From Alphaproteobacteria bacterium (lineage in GTDB: Bacteria > Pseudomonadota > Alphaproteobacteria > Micavibrionales > Micavibrionaceae), in NCBI GenBank assembly GCA_009929775.1, contig RZZS01000018.1:1-38871 (forward strand): a stretch of 38,871 nucleotides of DNA, read 5' to 3'. Both the position numbers and the translations under genes were made by a program. The notes beneath the pieces are model-generated. The model made no database searches, had not been told where the DNA came from, and worked only from the letters and a program-made list of their open reading frames with translations. Positions within the stretch are counted from its first letter, which is position 1. Every line of letters starts with the position of its first letter. Of the stretch, positions 3,061 to 33,582 are shown piece after piece.

Positions 3061-3117
3061 TTATGAGCGATCTTGATTGTGTGTCCGTTGAAGCAATGGA
3101 TAAAGGGGATTGTCATT

Positions 3118-3987
3118 ATGGGGAACGTATTTTTTGCGGGCCGGGTTTTTCTTCAGTCATTTGCCGTCGCTGTCTGCCTGGTTTTTCCAGCTCTGGCGCA
3201 AGGGAATGGCGGTAAAACCACTTTCGACCGCGTGATGGAGAGCGGAAAAATCCGGTGCGGTTACGCATCGTGGGCTCCGTCGCTGATGATCGATCCGAAT
3301 ACGGGTGCGCTTTCCGGATATAGTTACGATGTGATGAACGCGGTCGGCGAGAAGCTTGGGCTGGAAGTCGAGTGGGCGGAGGAAGCAGGCTGGGGCGTCG
3401 CCGAGCAAGGAATTGAAAGTGGGCGTTACGATGCGTTCTGTGTCGATGTCTGTATGGAGCCGCACAGAACGAAAGTCGTGTGGTATTCGGCGCCCTTCAT
3501 CTATTTGCCGTTCTACGCCATCGTACGCGCGGACGACAATCGTTTCGACGCGAACAGGGATAGCCTTGACAGCGAATCGGTCACCTTCGCCATTATTCCC
3601 AATACATTGCTCGACTACGCCGTGAGGGATGTCTTTCCAGACTCAAAACGGGTGGATGTAAACGACCTTGCCGGAGACGGAAACGTGATGATGACGGTTG
3701 TCGGTGGGAAGGCCGATTCTGCGCTGAGCACGTATTATCCCGTTACGCGGTTTAACGAGAACAACGACAAAAAGGTCAAGACGGTCGGCGAGCCGGTCCG
3801 AACCTGTCCGGCCGGTTTCCTGCTTCCGCGCAGGGACACCGAACTGAAATATGTCGTCGACAGCGCGATCACGCAGCTTCGGTTGTCCGGGCGTCTGGAA
3901 GAGATATTTCAACGTTACGCGCCGAACGACGGACGTTACTGGCTTTTGCCGACGTTGCCGTACCAAAATCACGATCCGGTGCACTGA
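3118..3987 (+). CDS. periplasmic solute-binding protein, family 3 (amino-acid type)
   Basis: A secreted protein of 289 residues resembling the SBP_bac_3 receptors of amino-acid ABC transporters. The ATG at 3118 follows AAAGGGGA and gives a clean signal peptide, hydrophobic from about residue 9, ending near PALAQG. An earlier in-frame ATG at 3073 only adds a poor prefix. The mature part has MESGKIRCGYASWAPSLM, then SGYSYDVMNAVGEKLG, GIESGRYDAFCVDVCMEPHR and KADSALST. In this family an Arg after the T/E-x-x motif and an Asp in the second lobe usually hold the amino acid backbone, and both are present here. The C-terminal LRLSGRLEEIFQRY is typical. No permease or ATPase is nearby, so the partner transporter and ligand are unknown, and it could be a sensor or orphan binding protein. 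It sits between pyrH and frr, which are normally adjacent. Confidence 0.85.
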   Translation: MGNVFFAGRVFLQSFAVAVCLVFPALAQGNGGKTTFDRVMESGKIRCGYASWAPSLMIDPNTGALSGYSYDVMNAVGEKLGLEVEWAEEAGWGVAEQGIESGRYDAFCVDVCMEPHRTKVVWYSAPFIYLPFYAIVRADDNRFDANRDSLDSESVTFAIIPNTLLDYAVRDVFPDSKRVDVNDLAGDGNVMMTVVGGKADSALSTYYPVTRFNENNDKKVKTVGEPVRTCPAGFLLPRRDTELKYVVDSAITQLRLSGRLEEIFQRYAPNDGRYWLLPTLPYQNHDPVH

Positions 3988-14719: not shown

Positions 14720-15883
14720 ATGAACTGTTATCTGATCGCAGGAGAGGCCTCCGGGGACGCTCTTGGCGCGCGGCTCATGGCCGCGTTGCGGGCGCTTGCG
14801 CCTGAACCGGTCGCGTTTGCCGGGATCGGCGGCGATGCAATGGCGGAGAGCGGACTTGAGGCGAGTCTGTTTCCGATGCAGGAACTGTCCCTGATGGGGA
14901 TCGCCGAGGTCGCGCCGAAGATTCTTGCAATCACTCGCCGGATTGAGGAAACGGTCGCCGATATTCTGGAACGCAAGCCGGACGTGCTGGTCACTATCGA
15001 CGCGCCGGATTTCTGTTTTCGCGTGGCGCGCGCGGTGCGCGAGCGAGCTTCATCGCGGCCCGTAATGATCCATTATGTTGCGCCCACGGTCTGGGCCTGG
15101 CGGCCTGGCCGAGCGAAGAAAGTCGCGGAATTTCTTGACGGAATCCTATGCCTGTTGCCGTTCGAGCCGCCCTATTTCGAGCGGGAAGGACTGTCGGCAG
15201 CCTTTGTCGGCCATTCGGTGATCGAGACGGGTATTCTCGATGCGGACCCGGCCCGGTTTCGCGCTGCGCGCGGCATACCGGACGGCGCGCCGGTTCTCGG
15301 GGTCATGCCGGGTAGCCGCGCAGGAGAGATTCGACGAACCGGCGCGGTGCTGTTCGAGGCGGCGCAGGCGGTCCTGGCTGCCAATCCCGGGATGCATGTG
15401 GTTGTTCCGACCCTGCCGCATTTGGTCCGAGATATCCACGCGCTATGGCCCGGCAGCAGCGGCACGGTCCACATTACGAACGCGCCGGCGCCCGCAAAAT
15501 GGGATGCCTTCGCGGCCTGCGATGTCGCAATGGCAACCAGTGGTACTGTTGGACTGGAGCTGGCGATCTGCGGCGTGCCGCACCTTATCGGCTACCGGAT
15601 GAACAGGGTGACCTGGGAGCTCGTGCGCCGGGCGGTGCGCGTGCGACACGCGCATCTCGCGAATATAATGCTCGACCGGGAACTGGTGTCCGAGTTTATT
15701 CAGGACCGGTGCACGGCAAAGGCTATGGCTCAAAAAATCCGGGAGCTGTTATCTTCGCCCGAGCTACGTAAGGCGCAGTCTCTTTCCTTCGAGACGGTAC
15801 GCGAGAAGATCGGGGCGGATGAGTCCGTCAGCCCGTCCGTGAAGGCAGCGCGGTTCGTTCTCGAAAAAACGTATTCGCCCTAA
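14720..15883 (+). CDS. lpxB: lipid-A-disaccharide synthase
   Basis: Glycosyltransferase (GT19) joining UDP-diacylglucosamine with lipid X, the product of LpxI next door. The 387 residues show the family opening [64 protein letters not shown] and the C-terminal donor-site region [15 protein letters not shown] and [12 protein letters not shown]. It ends the plus-strand run. The stop overlaps the gltA stop by four bases from the opposite strand, so there is no room for a separate terminator. Confidence 0.97.
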
Positions 15884-17196
15884 CGCTGTTCCATCGAAAC
15901 GTACGGTCGTTCCTTCGGTCCGGTATAAAGCTGGCGCGGGCGACCGATCCGGAGGGACGGTTCCTCAATCATTTCTTTCCACTGCGATATCCAGCCGATC
16001 GTTCGCGCAACCGCGAAGAGCGGTGTGAACATGGTCGTCGGGAAGCCCATGGCCTTGAGGATAATGCCGGAATAGAAATCGACGTTCGGGTAGAGTTTCT
16101 TTTCGATGAAATATTCGTCTTCGAGGGCGATACGTTCAAGTTCGAGGGCGATTGAAAGCAGCGGGTCGTTGTGAATGCCAAGATCGTCGAGAACCTGATC
16201 GCAGGAGTTTTTCAGAACCTGCGCGCGTGGATCGTAGTTCTTGTAAACCCGGTGTCCGAATCCCATCAGGCGGAACGGGTCGTCCTTGTCTTTGGCGCGC
16301 TTGATGAATTCCGGGATGCGGTCCTTGGTGCCGATTTCCCTAAGCATCTCAAGCACGGCCTGATTCGCCCCCCCGTGACTTGGGCCCCAGAGCGAAGCGA
16401 TCCCCGCAGCAACGCAGGCGAAAGGATTGGCTTGCGAGGATCCGGCGAGGCGTACGGTCGAGGTCGAGGCGTTCTGTTCGTGGTCCGCGTGCAGGATGAG
16501 GATCTTGTCCATCGCGTCCGCCAGAACCGGGTTCACGACATACGGTTCGGCGGGAACCGCGAAGCACATATGCAGGAAGTTCTCGGCGTAGTTCAGCTCA
16601 TTGCGCGGATACATGAACGGCTGGCCGAGGTTGTATTTCATCGCCATCGCGGCAAGGGTCGGGATCTTCGCAAGCATTCGGTGAGCGGATATCTCCCTTT
16701 GACGCGGGTCCCAGATATCCAGCGAGTCGTGGTAAAAGGCCGAAAGCGCGCCGACGATGCCGCAGAGCACAGCCATCGGGTGCGCGTCCCGGCGGAATCC
16801 GCGGAAGAAGTTATTCACCTGGTCGTTTACCATGGTGTGGTATTTGATGTTCCTCGTGAAGGAATCGAATTCGTCCTTGTTCGGCAGATCGCCGTTCAGA
16901 AGCAAATAACAGACTTCGAGAAAGTTGCTCTTCCCTGCCAGTTCTTTGATGTCGTAACCACGGTGCAGAAGTATCCCTTTCTCGCCATCGATATAGGTGA
17001 TGCGCGATTTACAGCTTCCGGTTGAGGTGAAGGCGGGGTCGAACGTGAAATGCCCGGTTTCGGCGTACAGGCTTCGTACGTCGATTACAGATGGTCCGAT
17101 GGTTCCGTCAAGAACAGGAAGCGTCCAGCTCTCGCCGGTCTGGTTGTTTGTAAGGGTAAAGGTCTTCGGTGCATCTTTGCGTTCGGGAGGGGTCAT
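15880..17196 (-). CDS. gltA: citrate synthase
   Basis: Condenses oxaloacetate and acetyl-CoA, the entry to the TCA cycle. The 438-residue product is the large, NADH-sensitive hexameric type by length. Catalytic residues are visible: His274 in GPSHGG, His315 in [15 protein letters not shown] and Asp373 in VDFYSG, plus [11 protein letters not shown] at 235-245. The start ATG at 17196 has GGAG eight bases upstream. A weak promoter (TTTCAA, 16 bases, TAGATT) lies at 17233-17260 on the minus strand. In relatives gltA and gltX are neighbours. Here a plus-strand gene lies between them. Confidence 0.98.
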
Positions 17197-17310: not shown

Positions 17311-17340
17311 TTGGCGCCGGGTAGCGGATTCGTGTAAAAT
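17311..17340 (+). promoter_or_regulatory. promoter-like signal giving a leaderless message
   Basis: TTGGCG at 17311-17316 is followed by an 18-base spacer and TAAAAT at 17335-17340. The ATG of the next gene is at 17346, so transcription would start at or next to the start codon. No Shine-Dalgarno sequence is visible before that ATG. Strength and use are inferred from consensus only. Confidence 0.4.
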
Positions 17341-17345
17341 TCAGT

Positions 17346-18557
17346 ATGGCCGGTGTAAATATTCTCGTTTCCGAATCCACGCGTCGGATGCTTGGTCCGG
17401 AGATTGTCGCTTTCCTTGAGGAGCAGGCTGTTCGTCCCAAGGCCATATTCAGCAAGTACGATTTCAATAGTGCAAGCCTTGCGGGCCGACTGGGTGAGAA
17501 CGTACGGGTAGATAGTATGCTGAGGGAATCCGGAATCGAGGATGCCGGAAGACGAGAAACTTTAAAGCGGGCGTTCCGTGCTGCGACGTCACTTCCGGAC
17601 ATGGCGCTTGAGGCGGAGGGGCTGGTCGCGTTGCCGGATCCGAATGGAAAAAACGCGTCCCTTCTGTCCTCAATGGCCCGGATGCCGGTCGATTCATTCG
17701 ATCCGGTGGTCGAAACTCTTAATCGAAAGGACCTCTTGACGTATTCCCTGTTTCATGAGGCCGCGCATACGCGTCCTGAGCAAATGCATATGTCGGCGCA
17801 GGAAATGCGGGAAAATGACAGCGATCTGATTGCAAACGGGCTCTACGCGCGCGCCTATGAGCGTGGTCTTGTCAGCGACGTTCGGGTTCCAGAATTCGTG
17901 TCCTACGCGCGCGCCCTCGGGGTGGTCATGTCGGGCAACAATATTTCGCCTTACACCTTCAGCGGAACCATCGATCCGGACGAGACAACAAACTGGGTGC
18001 TTTCCGGGAACCCGGAGACACGGTTCTGGGCGATCAATAACGCGTTGGTTGACGTGTATCGCTCCATTGGGAGCGAGCATGACTCTAGTCGTATCCGCTT
18101 TTACGCTCTCGGCGAGATCGAAGGTAACGGGTTCCTGTCTGGCTCTCAGCGGGATCGCTTTGAAGAGCTGTCTCGTTCGGGGGAGGATGCTCCATTATCC
18201 GACATCAAGAGCTTCCTGGCAGAACTTGAGATTCCCGGGGAAGTTCAGCCGCGATACGCCATGGCGATTCGCGATGCCATGATCAATGAGGGTGTTCGGA
18301 TGGTAACCGAGCAGCCCGGATTGCTTTATGAATCACTCAAATCCAACCTTCTCAGGGGAGACTATGATTACGACGCCGGGCTTAAAACCCAGATGCAGAA
18401 CGCGGTTCTTGGTATGGAAAATCTGGCTTCGAACCATTTCGGCATAGAAGGCGCGCCGTATACGCGTTATTTAAGGCAATCAGGTGAAAACCTGACGTCA
18501 GGACTCGCGCCGAAGAGTCTGCGCGTGGCTCCGTCCTTTGGCGGAATTACGCCATAG
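17346..18557 (+). CDS. unrecognised protein with HEXXH zinc-peptidase-like motif
   Basis: I do not recognise the family of this 403-residue protein. It has no signal peptide or membrane segment, so it is probably cytoplasmic. Residues 137-141 read HEAAH, preceded by LTYSLF, the usual hydrophobic helix context of zincins. Fifteen residues later comes ENDSDLIANGLY (Glu156, Asp160), which fits the third-ligand helix (E-x-x-x-D-x-x-A) of gluzincin-type peptidases. The N-terminal 130 residues and the acidic C-terminal half show no motif I know. It has no nearby partner, and its end overlaps the gltX end by 11 bases on the other strand. Base usage is less GC-biased than that of its neighbours. The metallopeptidase role is an inference from one motif, and catalysis is unproven. 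Confidence 0.7.
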   Translation: MAGVNILVSESTRRMLGPEIVAFLEEQAVRPKAIFSKYDFNSASLAGRLGENVRVDSMLRESGIEDAGRRETLKRAFRAATSLPDMALEAEGLVALPDPNGKNASLLSSMARMPVDSFDPVVETLNRKDLLTYSLFHEAAHTRPEQMHMSAQEMRENDSDLIANGLYARAYERGLVSDVRVPEFVSYARALGVVMSGNNISPYTFSGTIDPDETTNWVLSGNPETRFWAINNALVDVYRSIGSEHDSSRIRFYALGEIEGNGFLSGSQRDRFEELSRSGEDAPLSDIKSFLAELEIPGEVQPRYAMAIRDAMINEGVRMVTEQPGLLYESLKSNLLRGDYDYDAGLKTQMQNAVLGMENLASNHFGIEGAPYTRYLRQSGENLTSGLAPKSLRVAPSFGGITP

Positions 18558-19947
18558 CCGCGTCCATCCGCGCGAGAGTCTCCTCCCTGCCCATGATTTC
18601 GGCAGCCTTGAAGATTGGCGGAGAGGTGGTTGCGCCGGTCAGGGCTGCCCGAAAGGGCATGATGACCTTGCCGAGCTTGCCGTCAGCCTGCCGTGCCGCG
18701 AAATCACGAAAGGCTTGCTCCAGCGGTTCCGCTGAGAAGTCGGGAGCGGATTCGATCAACGTCCGGATGCCGGGCAGGATCTCGGCGCTGTCCGCGAGCG
18801 CTTTTTGTGCCTTGTCGTTGAACGAACGGGGTGCAATCGCATAAAAGGAGGCTTCGTCAGCAAGCTGGACGATGGTTTTCGCCCGGTCTTTTAAATCATC
18901 AAGGCCCAAAAAGATCCATTTGAGGGTCACTGGGGTTAGTTTCAGTCCGCGCTTTTGATACTCCGTATCAAGCAGACCCATGAGACGCTCGTTGCTAGCG
19001 AGCTTGATGTAATGGGCATTAAGGCTCTCGAGCTTGGCAAAATCAAATTTTGCTGCCGCTTTGTTTATGCCGTCGAGCTCGAAGAGCTCAACGGCTCGGT
19101 CTGTTGGAATAATTTCCTCATCGCCGTGGCTCCAGCCCAGCCGAAGAAGGTAGTTACGCATCGCCTCAGGCAGGAAGCCCATTTCGCGGTATTCCGCGAC
19201 GCTCTGCGCGCCGTGGCGTTTGGAAAATTTGGATCCGTCGGGGCCGTGAATCAGGGGCAGGTGGGCGTAGGTCGGCTTTTCCCATTCGAGCGCGTCGTAG
19301 ATGACGTTCTGACGAAAGGTGTTGTTGAGGTGGTCGTCGCCGCGCAGGACGTGCGTGACGCCCATATCGTGATCGTCGACTACGACCGAGAGCATGTAGG
19401 TCGGCGTGCCGTCGGAGCGGAGCAGGATAAAGTCGTCGAGTTGTTTGTTTTCGACTTTGACGTCGCCCTGCACCTTGTCGTGGACCACGGTAAACCCGTC
19501 CACCGGAGCCTTGATCCGCACCACCGGCTTGACGCCTTCCGGCGCCTCCGACGGGCCGCGGTCGCGCCAGCGCCGGTCGTAGACGGCGCTGCGTCCTTCG
19601 GCGCGGGCGGTCTCGCGCATGCGCTCCAGTTCCTCCGGAGTGCAGTAGCAGTAATACGCCTTGCCCGCCGCAAGGAGTTCATTTGCGACGTCGATATGAC
19701 GCTGGCGGTTTTCGTATTGGGAATAAATCTCGCCCTTATTGTCCCAGTCGAGTTCGAGCCAGCGCAGACCGTCGAGAATAACCTCAACCGCTTCCTTCGA
19801 GTAACGCTCGCGGTCGGTGTCCTCGATGCGCATCAGGAAGGTTCCCCCGGTATGCCGGGCGTAAAGCCAGTTGAACAGCGCGGTGCGCGCGTTGCCGATA
19901 TGCATGAAGCCGGTCGGCGAGGGCGGAAAGCGGGTAACGACACTCAT
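18547..19947 (-). CDS. gltX: glutamyl-tRNA synthetase
   Basis: Class I aminoacyl-tRNA synthetase charging tRNA-Glu, and perhaps tRNA-Gln in organisms lacking GlnRS. The 466 residues hold the HIGH motif as HIGN (16-19) in FPPSPTGFMHIGNAR, the LMRIEDTDRERY block, a CYC pair at 100-102, LRGDDHLNNTFRQ, and the KMSKS-type loop KFSKR at 240-244. The C-terminal anticodon-binding helices follow. The start at 19947 is backed by an AAAGGATG ribosome-binding site. It is divergent from comEC with a 93-base gap. Confidence 0.97.
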   Translation of the reverse strand: MSVVTRFPPSPTGFMHIGNARTALFNWLYARHTGGTFLMRIEDTDRERYSKEAVEVILDGLRWLELDWDNKGEIYSQYENRQRHIDVANELLAAGKAYYCYCTPEELERMRETARAEGRSAVYDRRWRDRGPSEAPEGVKPVVRIKAPVDGFTVVHDKVQGDVKVENKQLDDFILLRSDGTPTYMLSVVVDDHDMGVTHVLRGDDHLNNTFRQNVIYDALEWEKPTYAHLPLIHGPDGSKFSKRHGAQSVAEYREMGFLPEAMRNYLLRLGWSHGDEEIIPTDRAVELFELDGINKAAAKFDFAKLESLNAHYIKLASNERLMGLLDTEYQKRGLKLTPVTLKWIFLGLDDLKDRAKTIVQLADEASFYAIAPRSFNDKAQKALADSAEILPGIRTLIESAPDFSAEPLEQAFRDFAARQADGKLGKVIMPFRAALTGATTSPPIFKAAEIMGREETLARMDAAMA

Positions 19948-32863: not shown

Positions 32864-33301
32864 ATGAAGGCCGTTATCGACACGAATATTTTTGTCGGGG
32901 CGATTATGAAATCCGGCGGCATTGATCGAAAGGTGCTCGAAGACTGCTTCAAGGGAGAAATCACGCCGCTCATGGGCGATGCCTTGTATTTCGAATACGA
33001 AAGTCTCCTTCACCGGGAGTGGCTGTATGAGAATTCATTGCTGTCGTCTTTCGAACGGGAAGCGTTTCTGGACGATCTGATGTCCATATGCCGCTGGGTG
33101 GATGTTCACTATCGCTGGCGGCCGAACCTGCGGGACGAAGGCGACAATCACGTCGTTGAACTCGCGCTTGCGGGCGGGGCGGAACGGATCGTTACATGGA
33201 ACCGGAAGGACTTCCGTGGCGGGGATTTGATGTTCGACCAGTTGCGCATCATCACACCGGCCGATTACTTGAAAGAAAGGGCAGGACAATGGCGACGCTG
33301 A
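32864..33301 (+). CDS. PIN-domain protein, probable toxin of a type II toxin-antitoxin pair
   Basis: A 145-residue PIN-domain protein, likely a metal-dependent ribonuclease. The family's acidic residues are seen: Asp6 in KAVIDTNIFVGA, Glu44/Glu46 in FEYESLL, and Asp94 with Glu99 in EGDNHVVELALAGGAERIVTWNRKDF, the last being the characteristic C-terminal signature. An AGGAAG ribosome-binding site precedes the ATG. Its last 13 bases overlap the ribbon-helix-helix gene, so the toxin would be translated first, the reverse of the most common order. The target RNA is unknown. A housekeeping nuclease is less likely given the paired partner. Confidence 0.85.
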   Translation: MKAVIDTNIFVGAIMKSGGIDRKVLEDCFKGEITPLMGDALYFEYESLLHREWLYENSLLSSFEREAFLDDLMSICRWVDVHYRWRPNLRDEGDNHVVELALAGGAERIVTWNRKDFRGGDLMFDQLRIITPADYLKERAGQWRR

Positions 33302-33582
33302 CCATACGGATACCGGAAGACAAGGCCGAACGGCTCAAGGAACTGGCGGCGCAACGCGGCATCAGTGTTAACAAGCTGTTCGACGAATGGGCGACGATGG
33401 CGATTTCCGAATTCGACGCGCATTCGCGGTTCCTCGCCCGCGCCGCGCGCGGATCGCGGGAAAGGGGGCTCTCGATGCTCGCGGAACTCGAGCGCCGTGA
33501 CGCGCAGGCCTCGACGCCGCAAGGGTTTCACGAGGCTGAAACGCCCTGGGATGCCGAAGGGTCACGCAATCCTTCAAAATAA
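33289..33582 (+). CDS. ribbon-helix-helix protein, probable antitoxin
   Basis: A 97-residue protein opening MATLTIRIPEDKAERLKEL. This is a beta strand and helix pattern typical of CopG/Arc-type ribbon-helix-helix DNA-binding proteins, followed by AAQRGISVNKLFDEWATMAI as the second helix. The C-terminal half is charged and probably wraps the toxin. The ATG at 33289 is inside the end of the PIN gene. An open frame from 33196 merely runs through that gene. It likely neutralises the PIN protein and represses the pair. Confidence 0.82.
   Translation: MATLTIRIPEDKAERLKELAAQRGISVNKLFDEWATMAISEFDAHSRFLARAARGSRERGLSMLAELERRDAQASTPQGFHEAETPWDAEGSRNPSK

Follow-up and report, generated by a model that had tools for sequence, protein, structure and literature searches.

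Gluzincins (MEROPS clan MA(E)) are recognised by an HExxH motif on a helix and a downstream glutamate of the ExxxD or ExxAD type on a second helix. In thermolysin (M4) the active-site residues follow the order H142/E143/H146 - E166 - D170 - R203 - H231. IrrE-like proteases cleave a repressor, and Lit cleaves EF-Tu in phage exclusion. Micavibrio-like bacteria include predators of other bacteria, and we know of hardly any enzymes with which Micavibrio and other epibiotic predators open and digest their prey. About half of the ORFs in the genome of M. aeruginosavorus ARL-13 are reported to lack an assigned function, and most of the genes with high expression in its attack phase to be hypothetical (PMC3189940). 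Here we describe P0001, a protein encoded in a contig of 38,871 nucleotides from a Micavibrionaceae bacterium (RZZS01000018.1, hereafter the window), which, as judged from the sequences of its homologues, is very probably a gluzincin-type metallopeptidase-like protein. The best explanation as a whole, to which we give about an even chance, is that P0001 is one of a family of zinc metallopeptidases of gluzincin type, undescribed and lineage-enriched, whose members act outside the producing cell.

An earlier note on this DNA had described a 403-residue protein with HEAAH at residues 137-141 and ENDSD downstream. The ORF was found at exactly the span given in Table 1, beginning with ATG, and E156 and D160 could be placed in it. 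The sigma-70-like -10 box of a promoter-like sequence stops 6 nt upstream of the ATG and the mRNA might be leaderless. Searches with P0001 gave no match of any weight in Pfam, NCBIfam, PHROG, PADLOC or PDB sequences, where PDB sequences returned noise only, as they did for the family profiles; the remark that no family was recognised for the protein therefore holds. Phages, plasmids and viral contigs, searched with one protein at a time, yielded nothing significant, so a mobile or viral origin of P0001 is without support. A literature search found no published data on genes of this family.

Table 1. Features at and around P0001, in window coordinates.
Feature	Position	Strand	Basis
gltA (citrate synthase), flank	15880..17196	-	synteny
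Promoter-like TTGGCG-N18-TAAAAT	17311..17340	+	consensus match only; 2 found vs 0.8 expected
P0001, 403-aa putative gluzincin-type metallopeptidase	17346..18557 (stop included)	+	ORF; family membership by profile search; tree
HEAAH (137-141), with H137 and H141 as predicted zinc ligands and E138 as predicted general base	17754..17768	+	identical in 57/57 members; AlphaFold2 helix 127-140, block pLDDT 90/82
ENDSD (156-160), with E156 as predicted third zinc ligand and D160 as predicted second-shell acid	17811..17825	+	conservation; predicted helix 150-172; block pLDDT 63; paired by hhalign with the ExxAD glutamate in M48, PF04228 and IrrE-like
R189, family arginine, likely active-site or second-shell	17910..17912	+	Arg in 54 of the 56 members not gapped at this column
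Y203, possible stand-in for the family His (H-x-T)	17952..17954	+	column analysis; register by manual inference ('SPYTFSG' vs 'xHxTG'); model pLDDT <50 at 202-204
Disordered C-terminal tail, about residues 381-403, of the charge-poor, Pro/Ser/Thr/Asn/Gly-rich type found in members without a signal	18486..18554	+	pLDDT <50 at 380-403; tail composition
gltX (glutamyl-tRNA synthetase), flank	18547..19947	-	synteny

As a first step, a single-sequence search of the order was performed, which gave weak collinear matches (1e-8 to 1e-2) in long ORFs, each with its own HExxH. The family was detected in 48 of the 142 genomes of the order by a six-member profile (A1) and in 70 by a 43-member profile (A5). 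With the latter, 57 of the 70 positive genomes belong to Micavibrionaceae, the bacterial family of P0001 itself, and up to seven copies per genome were found in the order. The profile searches gathered 57 members, whose pairwise identity has a median of 17%, and random halves of the family align over 297 columns at 100% in hhalign. The source genome holds four copies, in the window and on contigs C161, C175 and C177, the match on C177 being shorter and lower in score; three were detected in G077, which is taken as ARL-13, at C1 2249177-2250235, 2253165-2254280 and 2254293-2255645. Outside the order, one strong match (G843) was found in a phylum sample of 399 genomes and four genomes were positive in a class sample of 385. 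The other matches in the phylum sample are well-known HExxH peptidases (M48, PF04228 and IrrE-like, by reading), matched around HExxH and ExxAD only. The family is lineage-enriched, expanded and diversified in Micavibrionaceae and rare outside the order; it has no entry in the databases searched, and P0001 is not an orphan gene. The earlier suggestion of a new or lineage-restricted metallopeptidase agrees with a family that is largely confined to one bacterial family, has no library model and keeps its predicted ligands invariant.

HExxH arises in 0.43% of P0001 shuffles, hence the motif alone is unlikely by chance but is weak rather than decisive evidence. It is taken as real because it is kept in all homologues at so low an identity. 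That the motif arose by chance in an unreal or random ORF would fit the shuffle frequency and the lack of a close orthologue, but is ruled out, at a negligible probability, by homologues that extend over 400 residues and keep the active-site residues invariant. P0001 also has coding-like codon use in its frame, the reverse-complement frame 0 scoring slightly higher.

In the alignment of the 57 members H137, E138, H141 and E156 are invariant. Loss of the motif in homologues was looked for, and HExxH and the glutamate were found in every one. Column analysis places an acidic residue exactly at E+4 in all members (53 Asp and four Glu), while the spacing between the second His and the Glu varies from 6 to 37 (median 17). 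In an otherwise poorly conserved alignment, an invariant HExxH...ExxxD appears just as an active site is expected to look. H137, H141 and E156 are the predicted zinc ligands, zinc binding being what we infer from this pattern. The earlier note had left the third ligand open between E156 and D160; the former stands as the candidate, whereas D160 is not taken as a zinc ligand since its position varies between Asp and Glu.

Structural models were obtained with AlphaFold2 for P0001 (pLDDT 69.1, pTM 0.72) and for member L095 (pLDDT 70.1, pTM 0.71), using seven sequences per alignment though 57 members are known, and deeper alignments would probably improve them. Both models have a small N-terminal part of mixed alpha/beta structure, one helix each for HExxH, the Glu and the Arg, and an all-helical C-terminal part. 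In the P0001 model HExxH and E156 lie on consecutive helices (127-140 and 150-172), with the Arg helix at 181-195. The block pLDDT is 82-90 in the first site helix of P0001 and 63-79 in the second, the E156 helix, which starts at about 63. Both gluzincin hallmarks were thus found, the HExxH on a helix in the alignment and the model, and the downstream glutamate on a second helix by conservation and the predicted helix. Foldseek comparison of two moderate-confidence models with the PDB and of one with viral models gave no match at E 0.001, which a novel fold arrangement and an inaccurate model would explain equally well.

A further family residue, a His in H-x-T context, is present in 50 of the 57 members and absent from P0001, where Tyr203 may replace it. 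This absence raises the alternative that P0001 is a decaying or inactive copy, which has kept the zinc ligands, has lost the second catalytic His and is now a binder or drifting. Its codon adaptation is weaker (0.038, compared with 0.07-0.24 in the other window genes; 0.012 in paralogue L055) and its branch is long (1.74), both in favour of this reading. Nevertheless the 403-residue frame is intact with all four HExxH/E residues, D160 and R189. The His is likewise missing from L059, the sister of P0001 in the tree (support 99/86), which may mean that it was lost long ago and that this is tolerated, and a Tyr at or near the His position in some other members suggests substitution. Decay of P0001 is, on this evidence, quite improbable.

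Divergence within the family was studied in two close Micavibrio genomes, G077 and G022, the latter presumably Micavibrio strain EPB. Their pheS genes are 99.4% identical, while three pairs of family members are 87.8, 88.4 and 46.9% identical, with dN/dS of 0.15, 0.19 and 0.33, respectively. Given these ratios, and identities far below that of pheS, family members stay constrained yet change fast. The third pair (L072:8294-9646 and L073:7583-8938) lies in the pheS-pheT region and has a raised dS of 1.44 beside the 99.4% of pheS, which suggests that an allele or paralogue has likely been replaced at one locus.

P0001 was said to sit on the opposite strand in a highly conserved neighbourhood. 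Indeed both flanking genes run opposite to it, its 3' end overlapping that of gltX by 11 bp, and gltX is directly followed by gltA in 23 of the 29 relatives examined. The gap between them is 64-286 bp in 22 of these 23, 880 bp with unrelated small ORFs in the remaining one, and 1352 bp, holding P0001, in the window. As gltX and gltA adjoin directly in these relatives, P0001 has been inserted, in its lineage, at a gltX-gltA junction that is conserved otherwise. Other members also sit between housekeeping genes, and tandem occurrence is seen. Recurrent homes are pheS-pheT (including the C175 copy), a place next to the gene of an RluD-type pseudouridine synthase and the hisG/infA/maf region. The pheS-pheT interval or its flank hosts members in several genera (L056, L058, L066, L070, L072 and L073), often beside a GNAT-like gene.

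Clustering of 586 neighbouring ORFs identified housekeeping genes as the only recurrent neighbours, with no immunity, secretion or regulator partner, and no mobile element or secretion operon recurs beside members. P0001 itself adjoins housekeeping genes, and no secretion or toxin genes lie next to it. Elsewhere in the window, at 3073-3987, an ORF that reads as a periplasmic solute-binding-protein-like gene lies between pyrH and frr, and appears by reading to be another insertion, inside the usually tight rpsB-tsf-pyrH-frr cluster. At 32864-33582, after pyrG, a PIN-domain-like ORF (MKAVIDTNIFVGAIMKSG...) is overlapped by a frame with a ribbon-helix-helix-like protein (MATLTIRIPEDKAERLKELAAQRG...), by reading a probable toxin-antitoxin pair.

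By a hydropathy rule 13 of the 57 members, including L059, have a Sec-, Tat- or lipoprotein-like or anchored N-terminus. The same heuristic finds no Sec, Tat or lipoprotein N-terminus in P0001 and no export signal in 43 other members. The earlier note had named an effector-like protein as an alternative; export signals are thus present in some relatives, the closest one (L059) included, but absent from P0001 itself. When the tails of 39 complete signal-less members were compared with those of neighbouring genes they were rich in P/S/T/Q/N/A/G and poor in K/R (4% vs 12%, p=2e-6, a statistic formed after seeing the data and on related sequences). Such K/R-poor tails recall type I secretion signals, and ARL-13 is reported to encode type I secretion in full, with types III and IV not in evidence (PMC3189940). 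Signal-less members like P0001 might leave the cell by a C-terminal type-I-like route. We favour an external role directed at prey or competitors, tentatively, at a little less than an even chance, although the missing signal peptide of P0001 and its housekeeping neighbours speak against it.

The main rival is an intracellular regulatory or defence role, in which the metallopeptidase would be cytoplasmic and cut one cell protein on cue. P0001 and the 43 members without an export signal suit it, as does the IrrE-like protein, which at 94% is the best individual match in the HMM-HMM comparison, and one member matches Lit (PADLOC 3.4e-5; NCBIfam 0.0016). Patchy presence, tandem copies and fast divergence suit defence genes too. 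However, the Lit and IrrE-like matches are limited to the active-site helices or to one member, neither a partner gene nor a defence neighbour recurs among the housekeeping genes, and the 13 members named above are of exported type by the heuristic. We therefore consider the intracellular role rather unlikely.

For the externally acting family we propose the following mechanism, in which the peptidase activity, the export of P0001 and its target are what we infer. Zn2+ would be held by H137, H141 and E156, E138 would activate a water, and D160 would orient a ligand His. R189 and the family His, perhaps Tyr203 in P0001, would steady the substrate or transition state, and substrate choice would be set by the variable N-terminal part, disordered loops and the all-helical C-terminal part. 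Some members would be exported by Sec, Tat or lipoprotein signals and the signal-less ones by the C-terminal type-I-like route, to cleave proteins of prey or competitors outside the producing cell. A more far-reaching version, which we regard as unlikely, is a rapidly diversifying zinc-protease arsenal with several export routes, including an unrecognised C-terminal signal, and with each copy tuned to the proteins of certain prey, in which P0001 would be a lineage-specific copy inserted at gltX-gltA. The family is a testable gene set, with a defined candidate active site, invariant residues, signs of rapid diversification and three detected copies in the culturable ARL-13. If its members act on prey they would be natural bacterium-degrading enzymes; if intracellular, they would form an undescribed protease class with a part in regulation or defence.

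Among known families, DUF6782 (PF20573) could be the parent of P0001, being nearly universal and multi-copy in the order. These putative metallopeptidases abound in the same order and have the same HExxH plus EAD helices; two members match PF20573 (best E 0.02) and hhalign of the family with active DUF6782 proteins gives 61%. Yet P0001 has no match, and even the best member stays well short of significance, below the Pfam gathering cut-off of 27 bits. The hhalign alignment spans 48 of about 390 columns, that is only the active site, compared with the 297 columns of the random halves. The HExxH-to-Glu spacing is longer in DUF6782, and the family profile, run on a small library, scores the DUF6782 proteins of these genomes at E 2e-4 at best. 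Because of the scores below cut-off and the 48-column alignment this parentage is disfavoured and very improbable. DUF6782 itself matches 137 of the 142 genomes of the order, usually in at least two copies (nine in ARL-13, at least 17 in some genomes), and is above cut-off in one of 14 control genomes. A locus in the source genome is G000:C12:6489-7184 (L190); others are L141-L160 and L171-L181. A widespread version of about 450 aa has RELRRH where others read HELRHH, as though it had become non-catalytic. A full-text literature search for DUF6782 found no paper.

The earlier note had proposed HMM-HMM comparison as a check. By hhalign the family aligns with M48 at 88%, PF04228 at 84%, an IrrE-like protein at 94% and another HExxH protein at 82%, compared with 0.5% or less for four unrelated controls. 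These references were picked because the family profile met them, which biases the percentages upward, and the pairing of residues is the point: the HExxH and ExxAD glutamate of the family pair with those of M48, PF04228, the IrrE-like protein and the other HExxH protein. M48 (PF01435; Ste24/HtpX/BepA type) shares the HExxH helix and the third-ligand Glu in an ExxAD helix over 64 columns, but its Glu lies much farther from HExxH than the median of 17 in this family, its C-terminal motifs are distinct, and it often carries membrane helices or TPRs. The M48 scores stay below the Pfam gathering cut-off, with no match for P0001 and E 0.02 for one member. The single IrrE-like/ImmA protein (M78-type) shares HEIGH and an acidic ...AAD helix over 71 columns; nothing beyond the active-site region matches, and Pfam M78 has no match. 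PF04228 (neutral zinc metallopeptidase, YpfJ type) shares HE[IV]GHH ... ELQAD over 53 columns, but differs in its N-terminal anchor and C-terminal region and has no Pfam match.

Lit (Peptidase_U49, PF10463) resembles the family through the one A5 member mentioned above, a pointer to defence as the possible role of some members, whereas 42 of the 43 members scanned, including P0001, have no match. Pfam M4 domains have no match in P0001 or other members. Compared with thermolysin the spacings are shorter and variable and there is no fold match, making it a functional analogy at most, but the order HExxH - E - (E+4) D - Arg - His recalls that of thermolysin, with a Glu-to-Arg spacing of 33 here and 37 there.
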